Below, piece by piece: positions 35,285 to 50,824 of a stretch of 59,728 bases of DNA. This stretch comes from a virus, in the IMG/VR virus record IMGVR_UViG_3300018421_000026, positions 1 through 59,728 of that record; one strand, 5' to 3'. The position numbers and the translations under genes are program-made. Under the pieces are notes generated by a model. That model saw only the letters and a program-made list of their open reading frames with translations, searched no databases and was not told the origin of the DNA. Position 1 is the first letter of the stretch, and the number at the start of each line of letters is the position of its first letter.

Positions 35285-35313
35285 ATTATACCACTAAGTT
35301 CTCCAGTATCCAA
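35285..35313 (-). promoter_or_regulatory. Sigma70-like promoter before lipoprotein and portal
   Basis: Minus strand: -35 TTGGAT (35308-35313), 17-bp spacer, extended -10 TGGTATAAT (TATAAT 35285-35290). It overlaps the end of the terminase gene. The start codon at 35277 lies close, at about +2 to +4 of the expected transcript start, so it would serve portal and later genes mainly. Confidence 0.65.
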
Positions 35314-36850
35314 CCCTCTTTGTTCTACGAGGGTTATAATCGTCTTCCCAGCTAGGGTCTTCATTGTGTGACACATGCCAGCTGTCCCGCATATAATGGA
35401 TAGCCATAGTCATTGCGTCCACCTGGTCATCGTGTGCGCCATTGGGAAATGCTAGACATTCATCGAATAAATCCTTTGCCCACTCTTTGCCCTTCGGGAT
35501 GTAGACACGACCCGACTCCATAAGAGGCGTAGCGGCATAGACACGTGAAACCTTGTCCCTGTCAGGAAGGTAGTCCAAAACAGGTAGTCCAGCGAGGCGC
35601 ATATCCTGAAGCAACGATTGACCAGAAGCCTTCTTCTCAATGATACACACATCTGGTCTGTGCTTTTGGTAAAGATGTTGCGCCGTTCTGCGAAGGTCAG
35701 GATATTCGAAGCGCTCTTTAACATTGCCGAGAAGGATGAGATTGGGAACGACATATTCACCGCCGTACTCGTCCTGCTCGACTTGGTGAAAGATACCCCA
35801 GGTTTGGATGACACTATAGTCTGCCGTTTTCTTAGTAGAGAAGGCCGTGTCATACGTTTGAATGATAAACTCGCAGTGCGGCGGGTCTTCGTACTCCCAC
35901 CACTGAAACCAATTCTTTTTGATAATCCCACCTTCGTCTGGCGATGGGTTTTGCATGTATAGCGCATCCCAGTATCTACTCCCGTTACTTGCTCGTATCT
36001 CTTGTTCGTCTAGCTTCAATACTTCATCTGGCTTCCACTCTGGAAAGTATGATGTACCTTCGGGCAAACCCAATAAGTCTGCTGCAGTTTCGTCCAGCCA
36101 TGCAGGAATGCTGATTACTTCCCACGGCTCTGTGGTAAACTCTGACTCCTGCTTGAGCAACCAGCCACACAGGTCATCAAAGTGATAGCGTGTGTTAATA
36201 ATAATAATGCTACCATTCGGCATCAGGCGGGTACGCAGACCAGAAGGCCACCACTCCTTGATATATCTACGGCCTGAGTCGCTGAAGCTGTCTTCTTCTG
36301 ACATAACGTCATCTAGCAAGGCCAAATGCGCACCCCGACCTGCAATCTGTGACCGCACACCTGCAGCATAGTACGAGCCATTGTGGTTTGTTTTCCATTT
36401 GCCTGCTGCCTTAACGTCTGACCGCAGGGACACACCCTTGAACACACGCTGGAAGTCCTCCGTATTTACAATGTCACGGACAGAACGGCCAAAGTCACTG
36501 GCAAGCTGGTCACTGTGGGACACAGACATAATCTCATGGTTCGGCTCACGGCCAATATACCACGCAGGAAAGATTTTACTAGTAATAAGCGACTTGCTTG
36601 AGCGTGGTGGCAGGAAGACCATCAGTCTTTTTATCTCACCATCGGCTACTTTCTGCAATCTGTCGCACAATAGCTCGATATGCCGCCCCATTTTGAAGTC
36701 AGTTACTAGGGTCGGGGCTACTCTGCGTACAAATGTAAGCAAATCTTCCTTTGATTTTTCTTGAATATATTTATCTAGTGCTTTATCTAGTGTCTGGTAG
36801 TCTAGATAACCACCAGATTCTACCACATCTTGTATTTCTTCTAATTCCAT
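35294..36850 (-). CDS. terL: Terminase large subunit
   Basis: 518 aa packaging ATPase/nuclease. Variant Walker A FLPPRSSKSL near residue 85, Walker B AHLALLDDVMSEED near residue 175, and the RNase H-like nuclease start IQTYDTAFSTKKTADYS near residue 335, with late NGAHDDQVDAMTMA giving another acidic residue. First gene of the late arm. Normal length. Partner TerS is at 220-675 on the other strand. Confidence 0.93.
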   Translation of the reverse strand: MELEEIQDVVESGGYLDYQTLDKALDKYIQEKSKEDLLTFVRRVAPTLVTDFKMGRHIELLCDRLQKVADGEIKRLMVFLPPRSSKSLITSKIFPAWYIGREPNHEIMSVSHSDQLASDFGRSVRDIVNTEDFQRVFKGVSLRSDVKAAGKWKTNHNGSYYAAGVRSQIAGRGAHLALLDDVMSEEDSFSDSGRRYIKEWWPSGLRTRLMPNGSIIIINTRYHFDDLCGWLLKQESEFTTEPWEVISIPAWLDETAADLLGLPEGTSYFPEWKPDEVLKLDEQEIRASNGSRYWDALYMQNPSPDEGGIIKKNWFQWWEYEDPPHCEFIIQTYDTAFSTKKTADYSVIQTWGIFHQVEQDEYGGEYVVPNLILLGNVKERFEYPDLRRTAQHLYQKHRPDVCIIEKKASGQSLLQDMRLAGLPVLDYLPDRDKVSRVYAATPLMESGRVYIPKGKEWAKDLFDECLAFPNGAHDDQVDAMTMAIHYMRDSWHVSHNEDPSWEDDYNPRRTKRVGYWRT

Positions 36851-36887
36851 ATTGCTTTTCTGCAGTCAGTGTTGCATATTTGCACTA

Positions 36888-36916
36888 TTGCAAACTGTTT
36901 GAATCCATGCTATACT
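36888..36916 (+). promoter_or_regulatory. Plus-strand promoter of predicted small RNA
   Basis: -35 TTGCAA (36888-36893), 17-bp spacer, extended -10 TGCTATACT (TATACT 36911-36916). Expected start near 36923. No start codon follows before the terminator at 37103. Confidence 0.65.
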
Positions 36917-37009
36917 ATCTTTACTTTAAAGTTCGGAGGTAAATATATAGGAGGATAGTCTATATAGATTTGTGCAGCCCCCGCTAGGTAGTTCTGGACA
37001 ACTACAGCT

Positions 37010-37038
37010 ATTATACTTCGGACACAACTACTACACAA
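37010..37038 (-). promoter_or_regulatory. Late promoter for terL
   Basis: Minus strand: -35 TTGTGT (37033-37038), 17-bp spacer, -10 TATAAT (37010-37015). Expected start near 37003 gives a leader of about 150 nt before terL. Convergent with the plus-strand promoter at 36888-36916, which would be transcribed across it. Confidence 0.68.
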
Positions 37039-37076
37039 GCACAATAACTACACCACAAAACAACTGCCAACTCCAG

Positions 37077-37103
37077 AAGCCCCCGCCCGTGGGGGTTTTT
37101 TTT
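37077..37103 (+). terminator. Intrinsic terminator, plus strand
   Basis: CCCCC/GGGGG stem, extendable by AAG/TTT pairs, a 6-nt loop (GCCCGT) and eight Ts. It ends the predicted small RNA and isolates it from the early genes. Confidence 0.85.
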
Positions 37104-37431
37104 GTGTCTGATGAAGTATCCTGGTAATTTTGGTCAGTATATTCCAGGGGTATATTATATATATGTATGCAGGCACGTTTTGTGGGTGGGGGTGCGTGCG
37201 AGACTTCCCTAGATTTCAGCCGATTCTGCCAAAGAATCCTTTCCTGTGGCAAATTTACCACATATTCTATGTGTTTTTATGAAGAACTCACCAGATTTCA
37301 CACGAAGTGTGTCTAATATGCCACACCAGAGGGCTTCCCATGCCCTTGCGAGATAGACTACCCCCGCCCCTAAGTGTATGACATACTTGCGGAAATAACT
37401 ACCCGTGTGTATTACACATATGTGTTTACGT
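37104..37431 (+). other. Non-coding control region
   Basis: No convincing gene on either strand. It holds a weak plus-strand promoter-like site (TTGGTC 37130-37135, 17 bp, TATTAT 37153-37158) within an AT-rich stretch, an imperfect GCACG/CGTGC hairpin with a G-rich loop near 37170-37200, and a CACATATGTG palindrome near 37415. It could contain early promoters or a replication origin; nothing here proves either. Confidence 0.4.
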
Positions 37432-50454: not shown

Positions 50455-50544
50455 GTAGTTGATATGCACGGGGGCGACATTTGGATTTGGTCGCTGGAGA
50501 TAGCTGCGAGGGTGGGAACGCTATCACTTACATAGGAGATTGAC

Positions 50545-50748
50545 ATGACAGACCTACCAGTACAATTGGTATTATTTTATTTTCTAATCGCAGGCTTCTT
50601 TGTCGGGTGGGTTATGCCCCGTGGCAAATATCTAAAAGCCTTTCAATTGCGGCTACTTAAAGGCTTGCACAACTTCTTCGCAGACGAGGAAGAGTATATT
50701 GCACACAAAGTAGAGCGCATTCGCAAGCATACACGCCGTAAGAAGTAG
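50545..50748 (+). CDS. Small membrane protein, 67 aa
   Basis: One membrane helix (LVLFYFLIAGFFVGWV, residues 8-24), then a basic helical tail (KVERIRKHTRRKK). GGAG before the ATG. Its TAG stop shares its last base with the first base of the tRNA. Confidence 0.72.
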   Translation: MTDLPVQLVLFYFLIAGFFVGWVMPRGKYLKAFQLRLLKGLHNFFADEEEYIAHKVERIRKHTRRKK

Positions 50749-50824
50749 GACACGTAGCTCAACTGGATAGAGCAGCAGACTTCTAATCTGCAGGTTGCAG
50801 GTTCAAGTCCTGCCGTGTTCACCA
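50748..50824 (+). tRNA. tRNA-Arg (anticodon TCT), CCA encoded
   Basis: Full cloverleaf: 7-bp acceptor GGACACG/CGTGTTC with one G-T pair, 4-bp D stem GCTC/GAGC, 5-bp anticodon stem GCAGA/TCTGC with loop CTTCTAA (anticodon TCT), 5-nt variable loop and 5-bp T stem GCAGG/CCTGC, then ACCA. Reads AGA and AGG codons. Confidence 0.95.

Follow-up and report, generated by a model that had tools for sequence, protein, structure and literature searches.

In the Pseudomonas phage PAK_P3, early antisense RNAs are directed mostly against the structural region, the small ones measuring 176 ± 30 nt, and these early antisense RNAs have been proposed to shut down the late genes early (PMC4933390). The locus described here presents a comparable arrangement, with a virulent type of phage and a small antisense RNA of similar size over the late structural block. 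However, the antisense RNAs of PAK_P3 were detected by RNA-seq and lie mostly inside genes, whereas the present RNA is predicted, overlaps the leader of an operon and is conserved across a whole group. The OOP and aQ RNAs of phage lambda are likewise short phage antisense RNAs with their own promoter, and OOP causes the cII mRNA to be degraded by RNase III (PMC12197685). Their targets, cII and Q, belong to a temperate phage, whereas no lysogeny module was identified in our phage, in which the RNA would target the terminase/structural operon.

In coliphage 186, the promoters pR and pL face each other and overlap, a few tens of bp apart, and the firing of one suppresses the other, which underlies a lysis/lysogeny switch. 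The predicted promoters of our locus are also convergent and overlapping, but they stand at the junction of a small RNA and the late genes. Finally, the RepG RNA of Helicobacter pylori recognizes a G-repeat in an mRNA leader (PMC8295292). Several relatives of our phage similarly display a C-rich motif in a terminator loop, but the motif of our phage lies in a stem, no G-rich target above shuffled sequences was found among phage starts and the two RNAs have no sequence relation. Although antisense RNAs of this kind are known from phages, the present RNA is undescribed and its conservation is unusually strong.

Genomic Context and Relatives

The window, i.e., the whole stretch of DNA that was analyzed, is a 59.7-kb uncultivated phage contig that suggests a lytic-looking, marine phage. 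Its large terminase (TerL) is ~40% identical to TerL of the Pelagibacter phages HTVC023P and HTVC027P. Leftward from terL and on the same strand lies the structural block (portal, capsid and tail genes), and the rightward block contains primase/helicase, DNA polymerase, ribonucleotide reductase and thymidylate synthase genes. The region of interest (36888–37103) is located inside the ~650-nt non-coding gap that separates terL from the rightward genes. The cumulative GC skew reaches its minimum at ~37000, where gene orientation switches, and may reflect either an origin or coding-strand bias. The sole tRNA gene of the window is a tRNA-Arg (TCT) at 50748–50824. No end overlap was found in the window; the 56.4-kb record of one relative (G004, the record of L016) presents 141-base identical ends. 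A TerL search of bacterial and archaeal genomes for the host returned no match, and the junction DNA gave only short chance matches to named phages.

Relatives were gathered by four TerL-based scans of IMG/VR, which identified many of them. We collected 227 regions upstream of terL, of which 104 were non-redundant. The close set comprises 42 non-redundant relatives with a TerL at least 83% identical to that of the window, and these represent 11 RNA types (single linkage at 80%). A conservation profile built from 23 relatives, leaving out the window's own clade, revealed short near-invariant islands set in freely diverged sequence (table 1). A pattern search upstream of terL in HTVC023P, HTVC027P and DSL-LC04 found no such unit; in these phages, terL does not head its block.

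Table 1. Coordinates of the features predicted at the terL junction of the window.
Feature	Position	Strand	Details
terL, large terminase	35294..36850	-	first gene of the leftward operon; its leader overlaps the predicted RNA
P_s, sigma70-like promoter of the small RNA	36888..36916	+	TTGCAA-17-TATACT, extended -10 TG
Invariant start region	36919..36934	+	CTTTACTTTAAAGTTC; conservation profile
Predicted non-coding RNA, ~180 nt	36923..37103	+	promoter, terminator, no conserved ORF, islands; ends inferred
Overlap of the predicted 5' ends of both transcripts	36923..37003		81 nt in the window; from predicted starts
5' hairpin	36935..36970	+	arms in relatives: GGAGGT/ACCTCC, GGGGT/ACCCC, AGGGT/ACCCT, GGGTG/CACCC
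C-rich motif 1	36976..36985	+	AGCCCCCGC; C-rich motif in 38/38 relatives tested; core positions 0.91-1.00 conserved
P_L, promoter of the terL (late, structural) operon	37010..37038	-	TTGTGT (37038-37033)-17-TATAAT (37015-37010); faces P_s; start near 37003
Intrinsic terminator including C-rich motif 2	37071..37102	+	AGAAGCCCCCGCCCGTGGGGGTTTTTTTT at 37075-37102; z -2.7
Conservation islands		+	TATTG (P_s -35); TG.TA (-10); TTACTTTAAA (start); GG.GG; 23-relative profile
Conservation islands	36980-36984; 37011-37016; 37035-37038; 37079-37083		CCCCG; TTATAC; ACAA; GCCCC; 23-relative profile

Two Facing Promoters with Overlapping Predicted 5' Ends

The initial annotation of this region had proposed a small RNA bracketed by a promoter and a strong terminator and running against a terL promoter. 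Both promoters and the terminator are present where they had been placed, and the −10 box of P_s is preceded by TG. A consensus scan alone is no better than chance (11 promoter-like sites for 10.7 expected and 5 terminators for 4.3 expected); it is conservation in relatives that sets the unit apart from chance. The pattern TTG-N17-TG[CT]TA...T is kept at the same place in 42/42 relatives and arises in 0.6% of shuffled sequences. The TTATAC and ACAA islands correspond to the two boxes of the opposite-strand promoter P_L: TTGTRT-17-TATAAT was found inside the RNA in all 40 relatives where it was testable (TTGNNN-17-TATAAT occurs in 0.3% of shuffles), and some more distant relatives present a perfect TTGACA-17-TATAAT at this site. 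The predicted start sites are spaced by 38–112 nt in relatives and the overlap of the 5' ends is always kept. Because both promoters are retained at these distances, we consider the facing promoters with overlapping 5' ends to be the conserved core of the locus.

The locus presents three features of a cis-antisense RNA: a promoter of its own opposite the target (P_s in 42/42 and P_L in 40/40 relatives), a predicted overlap and a non-coding sequence. The proposal of an antisense RNA against the terL leader holds for the facing promoters and for the ~80 nt of predicted overlap, but this overlap stops short of the terL start. Since the pairing does not reach this start (36851–36870), a simple masking of the ribosome-binding site is excluded or unlikely. 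The ATG of terL is without a clear Shine-Dalgarno sequence upstream (36851–36870). In L079, L104, L204 and other distant relatives, an apparent small leftward gene, read by eye, lies between P_s and terL; the window's clade is without it.

The region around the predicted start of P_s is also strongly conserved. The first transcribed bases, TTACTTT, are 100% conserved in the relatives compared. A dyad (AACYTT-ACTTT-AARGTT) spans this start at 36919–36935, and one relative (L183) carries a paired change in it (CCTT/AAGG). No clear second copy of the dyad was found in the window. From its sequence and position, this dyad is a possible candidate operator.

Coding Potential and Structure of the Predicted RNA

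We found no ATG within 36917–37103, in agreement with the claim that the region lacks a start codon. A conserved protein, which would speak against an RNA gene, was also looked for, and no reading frame is conserved among relatives. Open reading frames of 44, 51 and 63 amino acids were considered and rejected, as they are interrupted by stops or frameshifts in close relatives. Neither the window region nor 11 relatives yielded a match in Rfam at gathering or permissive thresholds. The stability of the whole-RNA fold is ordinary (z −0.67), and only local hairpins are unusually stable. Together with the promoter, terminator and islands, the lack of a conserved frame and of an Rfam match indicates that a selected non-coding unit of ~180 nt very probably exists, and we infer that it is transcribed.

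A hairpin near the 5' end is found in most RNA types and is absent or very weak in L232. It is degenerate in the window and its clade (AGGU/AUUU plus UAUAUAG/CUAUAUA in the window). With arms that were chosen by hand, 81% of the cells are paired relative to at most 78% in 1000 shuffles, and the covariation supports this hairpin moderately. The GGAGG motifs had been suggested to pair with 16S rRNA. A decoy of this type (anti-anti-SD) would be expected to expose a conserved GGAGG, which we did not observe: beyond the window, the second copy (36950) is shared by its nearest relatives alone, whereas the first belongs to a hairpin arm that reads GGGG or AGGG elsewhere. Nor does the suggested competing fold, in which the first copy of AGCCCCCGC pairs with the terminator arm, appear plausible, as it reaches −24.1 kcal/mol versus −39.5 kcal/mol (15 worse; probability about 0).

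Terminator and C-rich Motifs

The terminator of the window has a predicted energy of −15.3 kcal/mol and is followed by 8 U; its z-score (−2.7) compares with −3.0 to −5.0 for the terminators of relatives. It encloses motif 2 in the window's own RNA type and in five others, and these six types all combine a G+C-rich hairpin, a T run and compensatory changes. The stems (AACUCCA/UGGGGUU, AACUUCGGC/GCCGGAGUU, AACUACGGC/GCCGUGGUU and AACCUAGGC/GCCUGGGUU) vary in sequence while pairing is always kept. This conservation of pairing despite sequence change, together with the T run, suggests selection at the RNA level. The CCCC of motif 2 is located in the terminator loop of most terminated relatives and in the stem in the best fold of the window.

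The terminator is absent from the well-populated sister type (L022–L027/L231) and from most of the more distant group. In L023, no terminator-like site was found within ~700 nt downstream. Relatives without terminator retain both promoters and both C-rich motifs, which indicates that the locus has features more conserved than termination. The two motifs (CCCC/CCCCCG) are retained in 38/38 relatives tested and the linker between them is free to vary. In L064 and L204, which belong to the more distant group, the terminator precedes motif 2. Motif 2 is therefore not always contained in the terminated RNA, and since it is kept where the terminator is missing, it may act at the DNA level or in read-through transcripts.

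A unique, strongly conserved element (GATGAAG.ACCCTGG ... CAGGGGTATATTATATATAT ... GGGTGGGGG) with an inverted repeat (ACCCT/AGGGGT) follows the small RNA at 37111–37200. Judging from its sequence, it may be a rightward promoter (distant relatives have TTGAAA-16-TATTAT), an origin or both. On the minus strand of L023 (3780–4100), successive small early genes are preceded by a leader unit (TTGACA...TTAGTAGTATCACTAT...hairpin...GATGATACACTTAAC) that occurs twice.

Possible Functions of the Unit

Our preferred explanation, to which we give a probability of about one half, is that the RNA unit restrains the terL/structural operon by promoter collision and antisense pairing. Host RNA polymerase would start at P_s (36923), make the ~180-nt RNA and halt at the C-rich terminator. 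P_s would fire head-on into P_L, which starts on the opposite strand ~80 nt downstream, so that polymerases would collide with P_L or occlude it while P_s is active. In addition, the RNA would form a duplex with the leading ~80 nt of any terL-operon mRNA, leading to RNase III exposure or early termination. The late genes would be held back until P_s is shut off, perhaps via the dyad over its start. The proposal in the initial annotation that late expression is delayed while early genes run is thus plausible. The unit would sit at the point where early and late genes diverge; its timing and the restraint itself are what we infer from the arrangement. P_s and P_L face each other in all testable close relatives despite diverged spacers, and terL heads the leftward structural block with the replication genes lying rightward, which both favor this explanation. 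On the other hand, overlapping facing promoters can be the passive outcome of a compact junction, and several relatives lack the terminator. Moreover, collision or pairing alone does not explain the invariant C-rich motifs and start region, because either would work with any sequence.

The C-rich motifs could instead belong to a trans-acting small RNA of the RepG kind, which would pair with G-rich ribosome-binding sites or leaders in phage or host mRNAs, the terL overlap being secondary. The conservation of both motifs around a free, unstructured and G-poor linker would fit such a role, as would the CCCC that mostly stays in the loop while the terminator stem is rewritten among types. However, phage translation starts pair with the C-rich motifs no better than shuffled starts. 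Complements of GCCCCCG are few in the window and none is at a start; the one at 50469 (CGGGGGC) is found after a stop codon and ahead of the start that follows. Motif 2 is retained just as well in the L022–L027 type without terminator, falls past the terminator in L064 and L204, and is folded into a stem in the best fold of the window. We regard this role as less likely than the restraint of the late operon. An RNA acting both ways in an early-to-late switch of this widespread uncultured marine phage group, with a cis block of the structural operon and a trans action of the twin C-rich motifs (one displayed in the terminator loop) on phage or host mRNAs, appears rather improbable.

We hold a similarly low expectation that the unit is the leader or attenuator of the rightward early operon, with P_s as the early promoter and the hairpin, C-rich motifs and terminator governing read-through. 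P_s is directed at the early genes, and transcription could continue in the L023 type, but the terminator of the window is strong, the early genes of L023 have their own TTGACA promoter and a distinct element beyond the terminator, at 37131–37158, is promoter-like and strongly conserved. The invariant start dyad and the retention of motif 2 where the RNA would not include it could also mean that there is no RNA gene and that phage regulators of P_L and of the early promoter recognize the islands as DNA. This we regard as very improbable, as P_s retains its promoter spacing in 42/42 relatives and the terminator points to selection on RNA. It is hardly more credible that the islands are sites of a replication origin in which transcription from P_s opens or primes a downstream AT-rich element. 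The GC skew minimum and the neighboring unique element with CAGGGGTATATTATATATAT (at 37145) would agree with an origin, but the skew also tracks gene strand, in several lineages the terminator lies between P_s and the AT-rich element, and the precise spacing of P_L would be unexpected.

How late genes are timed in lytic phages that lack their own RNA polymerase is poorly known beyond a few models. As a restraint on the late operon, a non-coding unit with opposing promoters in dozens of uncultured marine phages would represent a specific and testable switch. The unit also offers a conserved marker by which the early/late junction can be annotated in this phage group.
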